Origin: Bacteroidales bacterium
GTDB lineage: Bacteria > Bacteroidota > Bacteroidia > Bacteroidales > Tenuifilaceae
Reading direction: 5' to 3'
Assembly: GCA_016931855.1 (NCBI GenBank)
Contig: JAFGDZ010000081.1
Coordinates: 62,001-126,000, forward strand
Length of the DNA stretch: 64,000 nt
Shown one piece after another: positions 47,130-53,266 of the stretch. The translations under genes were made by a program, and so were the position numbers. How positions within the stretch are numbered: the stretch's first letter is position 1; each line of letters opens with the position of its first letter. The notes under the pieces were generated by a model. It saw nothing but the letters and a program-made list of their open reading frames with translations, had not been told where the DNA came from and ran no database searches.

Positions 47130-48500
47130 ATGATGAGATCTTTCGTACTTCTTTTTAATATGCTAGGTGTACTTTTCCTCAACTTCATGTTGAGCGAAGA
47201 TGTTTCCCTATCTATGGATGTTCCTACAGAGGTAAGTGCGGGTGCTGAATTTGATGTTGAAGTAACCCTCAAAAAAGGAGCACTAGCCAGTTTTGCAAGA
47301 TTCCAGCAGGATTTACCGCTAGGTTTATCTGCGCAAGCTGTTGATCCTGCAAACTCAAACTTTACCTTCGAGAATCAAAAGGTAAAGTTTATTTGGCTCC
47401 GTTTACCAATGGAATCGGAATTTAAGGTAATGTACCGCGTTAGGGTTGATGAGCGCCTAAAAGGCCAGTTCGACCTTAAAGGGCTTTTCTCGTATATCGA
47501 AGGAAATGAGCGCAAGTCGGTTCCTGTAGGTTCAAATGCCATTGTTATTCGTCCCTCAAGCAAAATTAATCCTGAGCTTATTGTTGATATCAACGAGTTC
47601 CAGAACCTTGTTCCCGTTCAGCCACCAGTATCGCTGGTTGCAAGCAACGTACGTTGCATAAGGCAGCAGCCTTACGTTTCGGGCGACAATAACGATATGG
47701 TAGTTAACGTATTGGTTAGCAAGGGCAGCACGGAGAAATTCGCTAAAATAGAAGAGGCTGTTCCACAAGGATATAGAGCCGAAGCCATTGAAACCCGCGA
47801 TGCCATATTTTCCTATAAAGATGGTACCGTTAAGTTCATTTGGATGAACCTCCCTGCAGAGCAGCGCTTTGTAGTGTCCTACAAGCTTATTCCAGATAAT
47901 GGCGTAGGTGAGCCCAATCCAATAATTGACGGTAAATTTTCGTTCATACTTAACGACGCTACACAGGTAATAGATGTGGTGCAGAGAGAGGTTAACCTTG
48001 CATCGCCCGACGCCAAAACTATAGAGGGACTTATTTCATCGGTTCCTGCTCCAAACTTGAGCATCCCCACAGGGAAGCAGCCAACAAGTACCAGCTTTAC
48101 TCCTAGCGCCGATGGTGGAGTTGAAATCCCTGTTGAGTACAAAAAAATAGAAGGCAAGCCTAGGCGCGCAACACAGCCTATTGCCGAAATGGTTAATATG
48201 CTTGAACCCGAGGAGGGCGTTTACTATAGAGTGCAAATTGCTGCGGGACACAAGCTGGTTAACGTGAAGCGTTACTTTGGAAAGTACAACATAAAAGAGG
48301 AGGTGCGAACCGAAGAGCATCAGGGTTGGTATAAGTATTCAATTGGCTCATTCCCTGAGTATAAACTAGCTCGCGACTATAGAGTTACTCTTTGGAATAC
48401 CACCCCAATAAACGATGCCTTTGTTGCGGCTTATAATAATGGTAATCGTATTACGGTTCAGGAAGCGCTTATGATTACTAATCAGAAATGGTACCGCTAG
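47130..48500 (+). CDS. Exported protein with duplicated beta-domain and SPOR-like C-terminus
   Basis: A 456-residue protein with a hydrophobic N-terminus (SFVLLFNMLGVLFLNFML). Two related segments follow: about 55-110 (FARFQQDLPLGLSAQAVD to LPMESEFKVMYRV) and about 205-260 (FAKIEEAVPQGYRAEAIE to LPAEQRFVVSYKL), each with a KFIW core, so the domain is duplicated. The C-terminal 80 residues begin YYRVQIAAGHKLVNVKRYFG and look like a SPOR domain, which binds denuded peptidoglycan. The gene is 20 bp upstream of a barrel/EF-hand protein and probably in one operon. Function unknown. Confidence 0.75.
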   Translation: MMRSFVLLFNMLGVLFLNFMLSEDVSLSMDVPTEVSAGAEFDVEVTLKKGALASFARFQQDLPLGLSAQAVDPANSNFTFENQKVKFIWLRLPMESEFKVMYRVRVDERLKGQFDLKGLFSYIEGNERKSVPVGSNAIVIRPSSKINPELIVDINEFQNLVPVQPPVSLVASNVRCIRQQPYVSGDNNDMVVNVLVSKGSTEKFAKIEEAVPQGYRAEAIETRDAIFSYKDGTVKFIWMNLPAEQRFVVSYKLIPDNGVGEPNPIIDGKFSFILNDATQVIDVVQREVNLASPDAKTIEGLISSVPAPNLSIPTGKQPTSTSFTPSADGGVEIPVEYKKIEGKPRRATQPIAEMVNMLEPEEGVYYRVQIAAGHKLVNVKRYFGKYNIKEEVRTEEHQGWYKYSIGSFPEYKLARDYRVTLWNTTPINDAFVAAYNNGNRITVQEALMITNQKWYR

Positions 48501-48520
48501 TTTATTGAATTGGCCAAACA

Positions 48521-49960
48521 ATGCAAAAGACAAACCTTACATACCGCATTTTAACCATTCTTGCCGTTCTTCTTTTTGCCTCGGTATTTACCGCACAGGC
48601 TCAGGAAGAAGAAAAGAACTATTGGGAAACTCAGCTCGAGGAAGAGGTGGAGGTGCTAAACCCTGTTTATAAGCCAGTAGTTTCATTTGGTGCAGGGGTG
48701 TTTAGCTTCCTGGGCGATGTAAAAAGCCCTGGAATGTCGCCTTTGGCTGGTCAGTTTGGCTATCGCGTAAACGTATCAACCCTTTTTGGAAAGAAAAACT
48801 TCTTTAAGCTCAACTTCTTTGTGATGATGGGAAATGTGCGGGGGCACAATTTCGACTACTCCTTGAAGTTTCAGCAGAACCCAGCTCTACTTCCTGTTGA
48901 CGATAATAACGATCCCATATACTTCAACTCGGCATTTAGTACCGATTTTTACGAGTTCGGCGCTAATGTTGAGTATGGTTTTGGGCATTTTCTGAGTGCC
49001 GATAAAAAGTTTCGCCCATTTGTTTCCTTGGGTGTAGCTCCACTTCAGTTTACGCCTAAAGGCGATTTACGCAATACCTCTGGAGGATATTACCACTATT
49101 GGAGCGATGGCACAATACGCAACATTGCCCAAGCAGCGCCTAACAGTTGGTCTTCCACAATAATCAGTCGCGATGGCGATTATGAAACTGATCTCTCAAA
49201 GCAGGACTATTTTGGGCAAGGAGGGTATTCACAAACCACTGTGGTATTTCCGTTAGAATTTGGCTTTGACTTTTATTTATCCGATAGGGTGAGCTTACGT
49301 GTGGCCTCATCAATTCACTACGCTCTTTCCGATGATATTGATAATCTAAACCCAACAGCTGCAAAAAAGTATGGGATAAAGGATAATGGGTTTAACGACA
49401 TGTTCTCCTTTACCTACTTTACCATTAATCTCGATTTGTGGTCCGATCCAAAGACTATGCTAATTGAGAAAATGTTTGCAGACTATGACTTTGATTACGT
49501 TCTCCTTTCCGATGAGGATAGCGACTTTGTTCTCGATGTGGCCGATGAGTGCCCCGGTACTCCGCTTGGAGTGGCTGTTGATACTCTTGGCTGTCCTTTC
49601 GACTCTGACGCTGACGGAATCTATGATTACATGGACGACGAAGTAGCCACCCCTGTTGGTGCTATTGTTGATGAGCGAGGCGTTCAGTTATCGGATGATG
49701 TGCTTGCCGAGATGTTTAACTTTGGTGACGCAGTTCTTAGGAAAGAGGTTCGCGTTATTCCTGTGGCTCCAATTTGGACCCGCAGCGTAACCTTTACTCC
49801 TGGTGTAATTCCTGATAAGTTTAAAGCTGTTGATGCCGATGCCGATGGGTATATCTCATTTGCAGAGCTTCTTGCAGCTATAGATAAGTACTTTGATCAG
49901 GAGTCCAAGTACTCCGTAGATGATGTGTATGAACTTAATGATTTCTTCTTTGCGCAGTAA
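48521..49960 (+). CDS. Outer membrane barrel protein with thrombospondin-type-3 calcium motif and EF-hand-like tail
   Basis: A 479-residue protein with signal peptide (TILAVLLFASVFTAQAQ), a roughly 300-residue beta-barrel-like part (SFGAGVFSFLGDVKSPGMSP, VVFPLEFGFDFYLSDRVSLR), a thrombospondin-type-3-like stretch (LDVADECPGTPLGVAVDTLG, DSDADGIYDYMDDE), and a C-terminal EF-hand loop DADADGYISFAEL followed by DKYFDQES. Both acidic loops suggest calcium binding. Unlike OmpA there is no recognisable OmpA peptidoglycan domain after the repeats. It follows the SPOR-domain gene. Confidence 0.8.
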   Translation: MQKTNLTYRILTILAVLLFASVFTAQAQEEEKNYWETQLEEEVEVLNPVYKPVVSFGAGVFSFLGDVKSPGMSPLAGQFGYRVNVSTLFGKKNFFKLNFFVMMGNVRGHNFDYSLKFQQNPALLPVDDNNDPIYFNSAFSTDFYEFGANVEYGFGHFLSADKKFRPFVSLGVAPLQFTPKGDLRNTSGGYYHYWSDGTIRNIAQAAPNSWSSTIISRDGDYETDLSKQDYFGQGGYSQTTVVFPLEFGFDFYLSDRVSLRVASSIHYALSDDIDNLNPTAAKKYGIKDNGFNDMFSFTYFTINLDLWSDPKTMLIEKMFADYDFDYVLLSDEDSDFVLDVADECPGTPLGVAVDTLGCPFDSDADGIYDYMDDEVATPVGAIVDERGVQLSDDVLAEMFNFGDAVLRKEVRVIPVAPIWTRSVTFTPGVIPDKFKAVDADADGYISFAELLAAIDKYFDQESKYSVDDVYELNDFFFAQ

Positions 49961-49980
49961 ATGCTATTTATCCCCCAATA

Positions 49981-50007
49981 AAAAAGCCCCTGAATAAGGG
50001 GCTTTTT
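49981..50007 (+). terminator. Terminator of the envelope operon
   Basis: AAAAAGCCCCT/AGGGGCTTTTT stem, GAATA loop. It ends 1 bp before the left end of the MITE-like element. Confidence 0.9.
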
Positions 50008-50156
50008 ACATTTATATATCAATGTCGTTTAGCTAAGATTTTAGTTTTCCTTATAACTACTCTTAGCTATTTCATAGTATTACTCTCGACCCCGACAATC
50101 CGATACCCTTTGTTAATCCTACCCTTTTAGGGCAGGACGTTAGCTGGTATAGCATG

Positions 50157-50189
50157 CCGTGGGCAATTCGCGTTGCTCATTACCCACGG
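50157..50189. repeat. Hairpin module in the MITE-like element
   Basis: CCGTGGG (50157-50163) and CCCACGG (50183-50189) enclose a 19-nt segment. From memory, hairpins of this form recur in Bacteroidota intergenic repeats. Confidence 0.7.
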
Positions 50190-50195
50190 TTATTG

Positions 50196-50220
50196 ATATA
50201 GCGCCAATTTGTGGCTATAT
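50196..50220. repeat. Hairpin module in the MITE-like element
   Basis: ATATAGC/GCTATAT, 7-bp stem, 11-nt loop. Confidence 0.65.
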
Positions 50221-50235
50221 GTTAGCGGACGCATA

Positions 50236-50326
50236 AAGCCTGAAAGGCTTAAATCTCAATAACTCTAGGTGAAGCCGAGGGAGCAAGAAGGTACGCCTAA
50301 ATGTGCCCCGAAGGGGTGCTACATTT
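50236..50326. repeat. Paired hairpin module in the MITE-like element
   Basis: AGCC-TGAA-AGGCT at 50237-50249 and CCCC-GAA-GGGG at 50306-50316, the latter inside outer arms AAATGT...ACATTT. The sequence between (CTCAATAACTCTAGGTGAAG) resembles the linker of a recurrent Bacteroidota intergenic repeat. Confidence 0.65.
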
Positions 50327-50458
50327 GTGCCAAGGCTTTGAGGATGCACTACCTTTTGCATTGATTGTATGTAACTTGCTAGCCAGTCGATTAAGTGTTT
50401 AAACAAATACTAGAAAAGGACGACTAGCTATACGACATTGATTTATATATGGTATGCG

Positions 50459-50911
50459 CTAACGTTTCATATACCTGTCCATTTCCCGCTTTGTGTCCTT
50501 GGACTTAAGGTCTTCGCGCTTATCATGTAGCTTCTTACCGCGGGCAAGGCCAATTTCTAGCTTTGCAAGCCCTTTCTCGTTTACAAAAAGCTTAATAGCA
50601 ACAATGGTTAAGCCCTTTTCCTGCGACTGGCGCTGAAGCTTATGTAGCTCTTTACCCGTAAGCAGTAGCTTTCTGGGACGCTTGGGCTCGTGGTTGTTGT
50701 AGGTGCCAAAGGTGTACTCGGCAATATGCATCCCCTTAACCCAAAGTTCCCCTTCAATAAAATGGCAGTAGCAGTCAACTAGGCTGGCCTTACTCTGCCT
50801 AATGGACTTAATCTCGGTTCCTGTTAGCACAATTCCAGCAACGTAGGTCTCAATTATCTCAAACTGAAAAAAGGCCTTTTTATTCTTTATAACGATTTTA
50901 TTGTTTGCCAT
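50459..50911 (-). CDS. smpB: SsrA-binding protein SmpB
   Basis: Binds tmRNA and brings it to stalled ribosomes in trans-translation. The 150-residue protein has [40 protein letters not shown] and [19 protein letters not shown], and the conserved basic tail [20 protein letters not shown]. No tmRNA gene (ssrA) is within the window. It is 5 bp downstream of the Yip1-like gene in the same direction, so they are probably cotranscribed. The MITE-like element ends 7 bp beyond the stop codon. Confidence 0.96.
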
Positions 50912-50915
50912 AGTG

Positions 50916-51497
50916 TTATGCTAAAGTTAAGCTGAAAAGAGGGCCCAGTAGTAGCTCAATTATAAATACAACCATTGCAAAAAGGAGGAAAATAATAAAA
51001 ACGAATCCCACTTTGCGTTCGGGTTTTATGCTAAGCATTGGTGCCAATCCTTTGTAAAATATGTATAGGCTATAAATCCCAAGAAGCATAAAAAATACTT
51101 TGAACGTGGGCATGAATCGGGATATCGATGCCACTAGGAAGAATACCGATGCCGAAAAGGTAACTAGCTTAAGCGCCTTTGCCATATTTTTAGTGCCACC
51201 AAACGATGTTGAAAGCTCATTTGCGATATATGAAATGGCAACAACTCCCAGCAATCCATTCACAAAGGCGGCAATAAGATGCCTAATGGCAAACCATATA
51301 TCTTGGTTAATGAGGAATACGCCAAGGAACGATACGGTGGAGCAAATAGCCATAAGCGGAATTAGGAACCCCCAAACAATTTGCGATTTTGATTCGGGTT
51401 CCGTAGCCTCGTTGTTCCATGCCGTTTCGGGTTCAACAACCGATTTGGCAATGCGCTTTAAATTGCTTGTGATATCTTTTATTGTGTATCGGCTCAT
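50916..51497 (-). CDS. Yip1-family integral membrane protein
   Basis: A 193-residue protein with a short cytoplasmic N-terminus and five hydrophobic helices ([92 protein letters not shown]). The pattern and the GxxxxxLxIFYKGL region fit the Yip1 domain family. The start is set at the ATG at 51497: a -7 box at 51525-51532 overlaps the earlier in-frame start codon at 51527, which would not be in the message. Function unknown in bacteria. Confidence 0.8.
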
Positions 51498-51524
51498 GAA
51501 AGTCGTTGGTTTTAGGACAGTGTA

Positions 51525-51532
51525 CAAAATTA
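51525..51532 (-). promoter_or_regulatory. -7 promoter element of the Yip1-smpB operon
   Basis: Minus-strand TAATTTTG fits TAnnTTTG; predicted leader about 25 nt to the ATG at 51497. Confidence 0.55.
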
Positions 51533-51571
51533 GCTAATTTTACACCATATACTACAATTCTACTATTAAGG

Positions 51572-52498
51572 ATGCCAGATAACCGCTACGAACTAATTAC
51601 TATACTTGGCCCAACGGCAGTTGGTAAAACTGCTGTGGCTGCAAACTTGGCTTTAGCTATTGATGGGGAGATAATTAGCGCCGACTCAAGGCAGGTTTAC
51701 CGCGGAATGGATATTGGTACGGGCAAGGATTTAGCCGATTACACTATCAATTCCATTTGCATACCCTATCACCTTATTGATATTGCTGATGCTGGCGATA
51801 AGTACAATGTGTTCAGGTTTCAGTCCGATTTTCTTTCGGCCTATAACCACATTAGGCACCTGGGCAAACAGCCTATTCTGTGTGGTGGAACGGGAATGTA
51901 CATAGAGGCTGTAACCAAGGGGTATAAAATGGTTAGCGTTCCAGTTAACGAGCCGCTTAGAGCCGAACTTGATGCCAAATCGGACGAAGAGCTGGAGCAG
52001 ATGCTCCGTTCCTTGAAGCAGGTGCATAACCGCTCCGATTTTGATACCCGCAAACGCACCATACGCGCAATAGAGATTGAGCTGCACCAGCAAAGCAGTG
52101 GGCATAGCTTTACGTTTCCAAGTATAAACAATATTTACTTTGGAATTGCTGTTGATAGGGAGATAAGGCGTAACCGCATAACCCAACGGCTAAAGGATAG
52201 GCTACGTGAGGGGATGATAGAGGAGGTGCAAGGTCTTATTAGTGCTGGTGTACCCGTTAGCACCCTTATATTCTATGGGCTGGAGTATAAATTTGTGGCC
52301 ATGTACCTAGTTGGTGAGCTAACGTACAACGACATGTTCTCGCAGCTAAATGCCGCTATACATCAATTCGCTAAAAGGCAGATGACCTGGTTTAGAAAGA
52401 TGGAGCGCAGCGGCGATACAATACATTGGATTGATGGTACTTTGCCGATGGATGAGAAAATAAATCAGATTATGAGCACTATACAGCAATACCGTTAA
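51572..52498 (+). CDS. miaA: tRNA dimethylallyltransferase
   Basis: Adds the dimethylallyl group to A37 of tRNAs that read UNN codons. The 308-residue protein has the P-loop TILGPTAVGKTAVAANLA, EIISADSRQVYRGMDIGTGK, HLIDIADAGDKYNVFRFQ and ILCGGTGMYIEAVTKGY, and the C-terminal QLNAAIHQFAKRQMTWFR. The start is set at the ATG at 51572, right before the family's first strand; the 22 codons open upstream are in the promoter region of the divergent gene. Confidence 0.96.
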   Translation: MPDNRYELITILGPTAVGKTAVAANLALAIDGEIISADSRQVYRGMDIGTGKDLADYTINSICIPYHLIDIADAGDKYNVFRFQSDFLSAYNHIRHLGKQPILCGGTGMYIEAVTKGYKMVSVPVNEPLRAELDAKSDEELEQMLRSLKQVHNRSDFDTRKRTIRAIEIELHQQSSGHSFTFPSINNIYFGIAVDREIRRNRITQRLKDRLREGMIEEVQGLISAGVPVSTLIFYGLEYKFVAMYLVGELTYNDMFSQLNAAIHQFAKRQMTWFRKMERSGDTIHWIDGTLPMDEKINQIMSTIQQYR

Positions 52499-52537
52499 AA
52501 TTTGTAACTTGTTAACTGCTAAGTAAAAAATCTTTTA

Positions 52538-53266
52538 ATGACGACTCTTGGACGCGATATAGATGCCTTACTTAACTGCAATTCTGCTGGGAATATAAGC
52601 TTTATCGGTTTTTTCTCCACGCATAATGCCATAGAGGTAAAACCGGTGAACAGTTCCGTTTTTGCAAGCGGTGTTAGCGATGAGCTGTGGTGGTACTCCG
52701 CAGCCAATAATATTGCAGATTTCAAGCAGTTCCTAAAGGAGCTAAAGGGGCGTATTGCATATCTTGCCGTACTAACCAATGAGCAGCTGGCCGCTGTAAA
52801 AGAGCACTATAGCTTTGAGTGGACATTATCGTGCATGCGTTATATCCTCCCAAGTAATGTGTCTATTAGCAATATACAGGAGAATATTAACCCCAGCAAG
52901 CTTAAAGTTACCGATGCTAACACAGTATATCTCAACTCAAACTACAATACATACACCAATCCCGTGTACATTGCAGGGCAAATAGCCAATGGGCCATCGG
53001 TGGGAGTAAGGTCTAATGGGAAACTTGTTGGGTGGGCGCTAACGCACGACGATACCGCTTTGGGCATGCTCCACGTTATGGACGATTACAGGCGCAAAGG
53101 GATTGCTCGTGCTCTGGTTACTTCATTAATTGGGCAGATACGTGAAAAGGGATGCGTTCCATTTACCTATGTGGAGCATAGCAATGAGGCATCTAATACC
53201 TTGGTGCGCTCGTTAGGGTTTGTTCCCGATAGAAATGTACACTGGGTTAAAGTAAACCTTAAATAG
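52538..53266 (+). CDS. GNAT-family acyltransferase (FR47 / glycine N-acyltransferase type)
   Basis: A 242-residue protein. The first 120 residues are a divergent N-terminal GNAT half; the C-terminal half has the acetyl-CoA site HDDTALGMLHVMDDYRRKGI and ARALVTSLIGQIREKGCVPF, then EHSNEASNTLVRSLGFVPDR. This follows the FR47/GLYAT pattern. Substrate unknown. It follows miaA by 39 bp. Confidence 0.82.
   Translation: MTTLGRDIDALLNCNSAGNISFIGFFSTHNAIEVKPVNSSVFASGVSDELWWYSAANNIADFKQFLKELKGRIAYLAVLTNEQLAAVKEHYSFEWTLSCMRYILPSNVSISNIQENINPSKLKVTDANTVYLNSNYNTYTNPVYIAGQIANGPSVGVRSNGKLVGWALTHDDTALGMLHVMDDYRRKGIARALVTSLIGQIREKGCVPFTYVEHSNEASNTLVRSLGFVPDRNVHWVKVNLK

Follow-up and report, generated by a model that had tools for sequence, protein, structure and literature searches.

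A 421 bp non-coding element that adjoins smpB in a Bacteroidales genome is best described, with a probability of about 0.85, as a miniature inverted-repeat transposable element (MITE) of the IS4 family (DDE type) that carries hairpin cargo shared with a Y1-type element. The assignment is drawn from sequence comparison. It has the appearance of a chimera that combines two mobile DNA systems, with ends of the DDE class and a middle formed by hairpins of a kind seen beside the Y1 class. The window, which is the entire 64,000-nucleotide stretch of DNA that was analysed, belongs to contig C31 of a 4.08 Mb genome in 82 contigs. Features of the locus are listed in Table 1.

Table 1. Features of the smpB-adjoining element and its immediate neighbours (positions in the window)
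Feature	Position	Strand	Evidence or remark
Terminator-like hairpin of left-hand gene, outside element	49981..50007	+	sequence
Left target site duplication ATTTATATAT	50010..50019	.	10/10 vs 50441-50450
MITE core, 421 bp, non-coding	50020..50440	.	further copies C67, C27, C10 (partial), C18 (interior only)
Left TIR CAATGTCGTTTAGCTA	50020..50035	+	15/16 vs right end; 1 mismatch vs IS4-type end CAATGTCGTTTAGTTA
Short hairpin CCTACCCTTTTAGGGCAGG (+ reading), third of module	50118..50136	-	aligned in all five copies
Hairpin B, CCGTGGG...CCCACGG	50157..50189	-	33-nt matches elsewhere in genome
Linker ATATCAATAACC (minus-strand reading), overlapping the start of hairpin B	50188..50199	-	pattern matches in related genomes
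Hairpin A, GCCA...TGGC	50203..50215	-	module scan
Hairpin A AAGCCTGAAAGGCTT, second inverted module	50236..50250	+	same hairpin in G191 and G193 elements
Hairpin B, second module, CTCTAGG...CCGAGGG	50263..50281	+	decayed here; CCCTCGG...CCGAGGG in C27, C10
Short hairpin CCCCGAAGGGG	50306..50316	+	kept in copies
Right TIR, minus-strand reading CAATGTCGTATAGCTA	50425..50440	-	2 mismatches vs CAATGTCGTTTAGTTA; same end of C67 copy: 0
Right target site duplication	50441..50450	.	10/10 vs left copy
smpB, neighbour gene, outside element	50459..50911	-	Pfam PF01668, 2e-57

Ends and target site duplication

The first-pass annotation gave the element imperfect terminal inverted repeats of 26 bp. An inverted repeat is present, with 27 nt arms (50009-50035 and 50425-50451) that are 89% complementary and enclose a 389 nt spacer, but its length has to be revised. 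The terminal inverted repeat (TIR) proper is 16 bp, complementary at 15 positions, and the outer part is a 10 bp target site duplication. This duplication, ATTTATATAT, is near-palindromic and almost its own reverse complement, which is why it was taken for an extension of the inverted repeat. As a control, the 64 kb window was found to contain 214 pairs of exact 10 bp direct repeats spaced 200-1600 bp apart. The pair flanking the element is the best of these, with inner ends complementary at 15/16; the inner ends of the runner-up are complementary at 9/16 only.

The table of De Palmenaer et al. (2008; PMC2266710) assigns to the IS4 subgroup of the IS4 family ends of the form -AATR--------WTW---- and duplications of 10-13 bp. 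The consensus end CAATGTCGTTTAGTTA and the ends of the C67 copy described below fit this form, and the duplications of 10 and 11 bp lie inside the range; the ends of the window element itself have a C at position 14, departing from the W of the published pattern. Common to the subgroup, as presented there, and the element are thus the -AATR--------WTW pattern and the 10-11 bp duplications, and the insertion sequence (IS) relatives of the element share the DDE domain and YREK motif. Unlike IS of that subgroup, the element lacks a transposase gene, and by sequence its interior does not derive from an IS.

Copies within the genome

The MITE identity proposed at first pass hinged on second copies, and these were found in the genome. 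An intact copy (C67:9579-10000) has 90% identity and an exact 11 bp duplication, ATTACCAATTC. Another, with both ends (C27:63080-63498), displays 83-84% identity and flanks that agree at 7/10. A partial copy (C10:7905-8253) retains one end, its left part being gone, and an interior-only relative (C18:268645-268856) has 78% identity. The copies adjoin unrelated genes. Together with the exact 10 and 11 bp duplications at two of the copies and the IS4-family IS of the order that have the same ends, they bear out the identification as a MITE.

A 93 bp mini-element on C14, with 3 and 2 mismatches in its ends and flanks that agree at 3/11, has no duplication and is at most a possible relic. A single end next to a hairpin cluster on C2 was set aside as a candidate, since its apparent right end lies inside the next open reading frame and was taken as chance.

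No copy was detected in 59 relatives of the same family or order, none of them another genome of the genus, nor in a coarser search of 294 genomes of the order in which at most two candidates were scored per genome. The mobility of this exact element family is therefore inferred from one genome. No similar DNA was found on plasmids and phages. A mismatch-free paired-end pattern gave 0 matches in 27 family genomes, a count that is uninformative because the pattern missed the window's own copies as well.

Genomic setting and secondary structure

The first-pass annotation noted a terminator on the left and suggested that the element may form the 3′ end of both transcripts; the left-hand gene has a terminator-like hairpin of its own ahead of the element. 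The right-hand neighbour is confirmed as smpB, although the element does not abut its stop codon directly, the duplication ending 8 bp away. The interior was said to be free of coding genes, and this holds: the longest ATG-to-stop open reading frame inside the element has 48 amino acids, and a 63-amino-acid minus-strand frame with a TTG start is not conserved, being interrupted by stops in all three other copies compared.

On neither strand does any of 100 shuffles fold as well as the complete element (50009-50451), with z -4.0 (+) and z -6.4 (-). This agrees with the earlier description of a chain of hairpins, but when the inverted repeats are removed the excess on the + strand becomes weak (z -1.46, with 4 of 60 shuffles equally good). 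The hairpins are predicted to fold in RNA from both strands, where they may serve to mark 3′ ends or to protect them.

An alternative is that the region serves smpB as a transcription terminator or other functional RNA under selection, with inverted ends arising by chance; strong folding of the strand that follows smpB and the distance of 8 bp from the stop codon speak for it. This explanation is very improbable given the exact target duplication, the dispersal of copies at unrelated genes, the lack of any Rfam match in 48000-53000, and the failure to find the element in same-family relatives that carry smpB. A tmRNA beside smpB was likewise rejected, as ARAGORN detected neither a tRNA nor a tmRNA in the window and the Rfam search of that interval was blank. 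An smpB match is present in 25 relatives of the same family, but the genes downstream of it differ, and for this reason no empty site was found.

Autonomous relatives with IS4-type ends

The element is presumably moved in trans by an IS4-family transposase, as judged from its ends. The first-pass annotation suggested that a transposase encoded elsewhere in the genome could mobilize it. The IS4-type ends support a non-autonomous element of this kind, but no autonomous IS with the same ends was found in the assembly: a search with the end pattern, allowing up to 3 mismatches, recovered MITE ends and one resident IS with different ends. The resident IS4-family IS (C20, L060, 488-1938) is intact, 1451 bp long, with perfect 18 bp ends, TAATGTCATTAAGTTAAG, a 10 bp duplication, GTCGCACGAT, and a match to the NCBIfam IS4 model of 5.4e-51. 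It was rejected as the direct parent of the element since its ends are related but different.

The C20 transposase has matches in 12 of 393 genomes of the order, its own included, and a second search of the order with the transposase of locus L082 found 11 genomes with a match. L082 (genome G311) is a 1498 bp IS whose two ends both read CAATGTCGTTTAGTTA and which has an exact 10 bp duplication; its transposase scores 152.7 bits against NCBIfam NF033592 (IS4; cut-off 115) and displays DDE_Tnp_1 and the YREK motif. The YREK signature, Y-2-R-3-E-6-K, is found in all five transposases checked. IS copies with intact CAATGTCGTTTAGTTA ends are also present in G193, G033 and G068, and the G191 copy (L083) has ends CAATGTCGTTTCCTTAAG. 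Among 20 IS-relative loci scanned, paired ends with an exact 10 bp duplication are found in nine; the other 11 are partial, at contig ends, without duplication or unrelated. G311 has 23 exact ends; 13 are on the minus strand, and 12 of these lie at most 213 bases from a contig start, a pattern that breaks in the assembly at a multicopy IS would produce.

IS4 relatives are present in 19 plasmid records and Y1 relatives in two, all with less than 60% identity; two plasmid IS4 regions that were inspected have no paired ends with duplication. Viral contigs yielded no Y1 relatives, zero matches to the hairpin pattern, and two contigs matching the 18-base end pattern, with no IS-like pair. On one viral contig (L095, 10958-10975) an exact 18-base IS4-type end is situated near a gene that by eye resembles a phage repressor; no partner end was found.

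Short elements with the same ends

G193 (n=10) and G191 (n=4) contain paired IS4-type ends that enclose 55-251 bp and no long open reading frame. The 10 bp duplication is exact in 5 of these 14 short elements and agrees at 8/10 or better in 12; two (L179 and L192) have no recognisable duplication. In G193, versions of 55, 105/106, 122 and 251 bp share one kind of end, and a partial IS copy is also present. The 55 bp elements of this genome (L181, L182, L197) are near-minimal, consisting of two ends and barely more than one short hairpin; one of the three has an exact 10 bp duplication.

Longer versions have perfect ends but no intact transposase: 937 bp in G194, with an exact duplication and a longest open reading frame of 159 amino acids, and 756 bp in G033, with an 8/10 duplication and a longest frame of 76 amino acids. 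Of 20 stretches examined as end loci, element pairs are present in 8 and lacking in 12; at L194 and L198 the weaker end was picked partly by its duplication score.

Hairpin modules of the interior

By sequence, the interior is a cluster of hairpin modules and not the remnant of an IS. A module consists of hairpin A, the linker ATNTSAATAACC, hairpin B and a third hairpin, and the interior contains two such modules in inverted orientation. Several elements of G193 and G191 have the same arrangement, i.e., a hairpin such as AAGCCTGAAAGGCTT, the linker ATNTSAATAACC and a hairpin that is often CCGTGGG...CCCACGG, often twice and inverted. The modules recur in MITEs with IS4-type ends from three genera, and they are also found free in related genomes.

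A scan of 19 stretches detected both hairpins at 18 of 22 linkers; the A stems come in 13 variants, and so do the B stems. Two of the stretches (L194 and the region downstream of the Y1 gene described below) have no linker. In control DNA, none of the 3 linkers in 444 kb of other G193/G191 sequence has both hairpins, nor has the single linker found elsewhere in the window. As the stems are perfect by the method of extraction, and free clusters were found with a pattern that contains the linker and so biases the scan towards them, the argument for a module depends on the control and on how varied the stems are. An earlier, rougher scan gave 20 modules in 15 of 20 stretches, with one wrong linker and with C77/C40 counted twice. 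One match from the relatives (L096), by eye seemingly inside a gene, was left out of both scans.

The element might instead be a plain MITE of IS4 descent, with hairpins that are nothing but its own decayed interior, their likeness to the modules flanking a Y1 gene being due to chance. Structured interiors are frequent in MITEs, and the weak excess of folding on the + strand of the interior would agree with this. It is nevertheless quite unlikely, as the hairpin-linker-hairpin order is kept with varied stems in several genera, both inside and outside the ends, and the non-coding ends of two IS (L082 and L085) have no modules by eye.

Also to be weighed is the converse possibility, that the modules are native to the MITE lineage and passed from it to the Y1 element. 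In G193 and G191, all six matches to the module pattern within 28.7 kb of loci selected by their ends fall inside elements, and 444 kb of other DNA from these genomes, chosen by contig number, has zero matches, which is as such an origin would predict. On the other hand, five of the seven exact matches in the element's own genome are outside recognisable elements (those on C40 and C77 being overlapping contig ends), and free modules are present in G013 and G007. An origin in the MITE lineage is unlikely.

Cargo seems interchangeable between MITEs that have the same IS4-type ends. Four loci (L179 and L180 in G193, L184 and L200 in G191) have IS4-type ends around a different palindrome, TTCGAC...CTCA, and L199 carries a third kind of palindrome. 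Two further arrangements were observed. In G013 (L097, C5, ~1501-2347), three module matches 415 bp apart on one strand form a tandem array with unrelated-looking ends. In the element's own genome, free hairpin clusters on C57, C48 and C77 (L006-L008, L012) are edged by purine-rich tracts of the GGAAGATGAGG type.

Association with a Y1 transposase

A 150-amino-acid open reading frame in G023 (L098) is immediately preceded by a complete module and immediately followed by an inverted, slightly varied one; this downstream module has a variant linker, was missed by the scan and was read by eye. The frame encodes a Y1 transposase (PF01797, 2.5e-25) that scores 66.1 bits with the IS200 model (cut-off 55) vs 25.1 bits with the model for REP-associated transposases (cut-off 80). 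The link between Y1 and the modules stands on this single locus and is the weakest in the argument. The element's own genome has a single Y1 gene, with no module in its flanks by eye. On a Bernardetia plasmid (L251, NZ_CP147018.1), palindromic repeats of another sequence, as judged by eye, flank an IS200/IS605 transposase gene on either side.

Proposed origin

The hairpin cargo of the IS4-type MITE may have come from a Y1-type element, i.e., one that acts on single strands and recognizes hairpins, and would now be spread by the cut-and-paste mechanism of the MITE. The two parts could have been joined by insertion of a hairpin element into a MITE, or by two solo ends closing around a hairpin cluster. 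At the locus described here, an IS4-family transposase acting in trans would have cut the element out and reinserted it in the AT-rich DNA that separates two convergent genes. The insertion point would lie 8 bp past the smpB stop, with the 10 bp stagger filled by host repair.

Relation to known repeat systems

BrickBuilt and MITE464/PgRS of Porphyromonas gingivalis are presented in PMC4596501 as non-autonomous MITEs that trapped repeats. Like the element, they are from Bacteroidota, have inverted ends and trapped repeats, and are intergenic and structured; they differ in having IS5-type ends and tandem direct repeats, where the element has IS4-type ends and dispersed hairpin modules.

REP and REP/TIR repeats located beside tyrosine transposases are known as parts of REPtrons and TIRtrons (PMC3733652 and PMC2817692). 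As with those systems, the modules are inverted palindromic repeats that in G023 are situated beside a Y1 gene and that also occur free in genomes. The G023 gene differs from those of REPtrons in scoring as IS200 and not as a REP-associated transposase. Judged by eye, the modules have no constant GTAG tag, and their hairpins sit in a DDE-type MITE.

A search of the open-licence literature found no DDE MITE that carries hairpins of the Y1 type as cargo. REPs and similar palindromic repeats are believed to spread through the action of Y1 transposases of their own. A broader proposal is tentative and may well not hold: in this order, IS4-type miniature elements would act as vehicles for Y1-type hairpin repeats, uniting DDE outer ends and single-strand hairpin recognition in one non-autonomous element, so that repeats spread despite loss of the Y1 enzyme and modules are exchanged. 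If the present reading is correct, DDE-type miniature elements would represent a second route for the spreading of palindromic repeats, and DDE-borne cargo may explain clusters of such repeats in genomes that have no matching Y1 gene.
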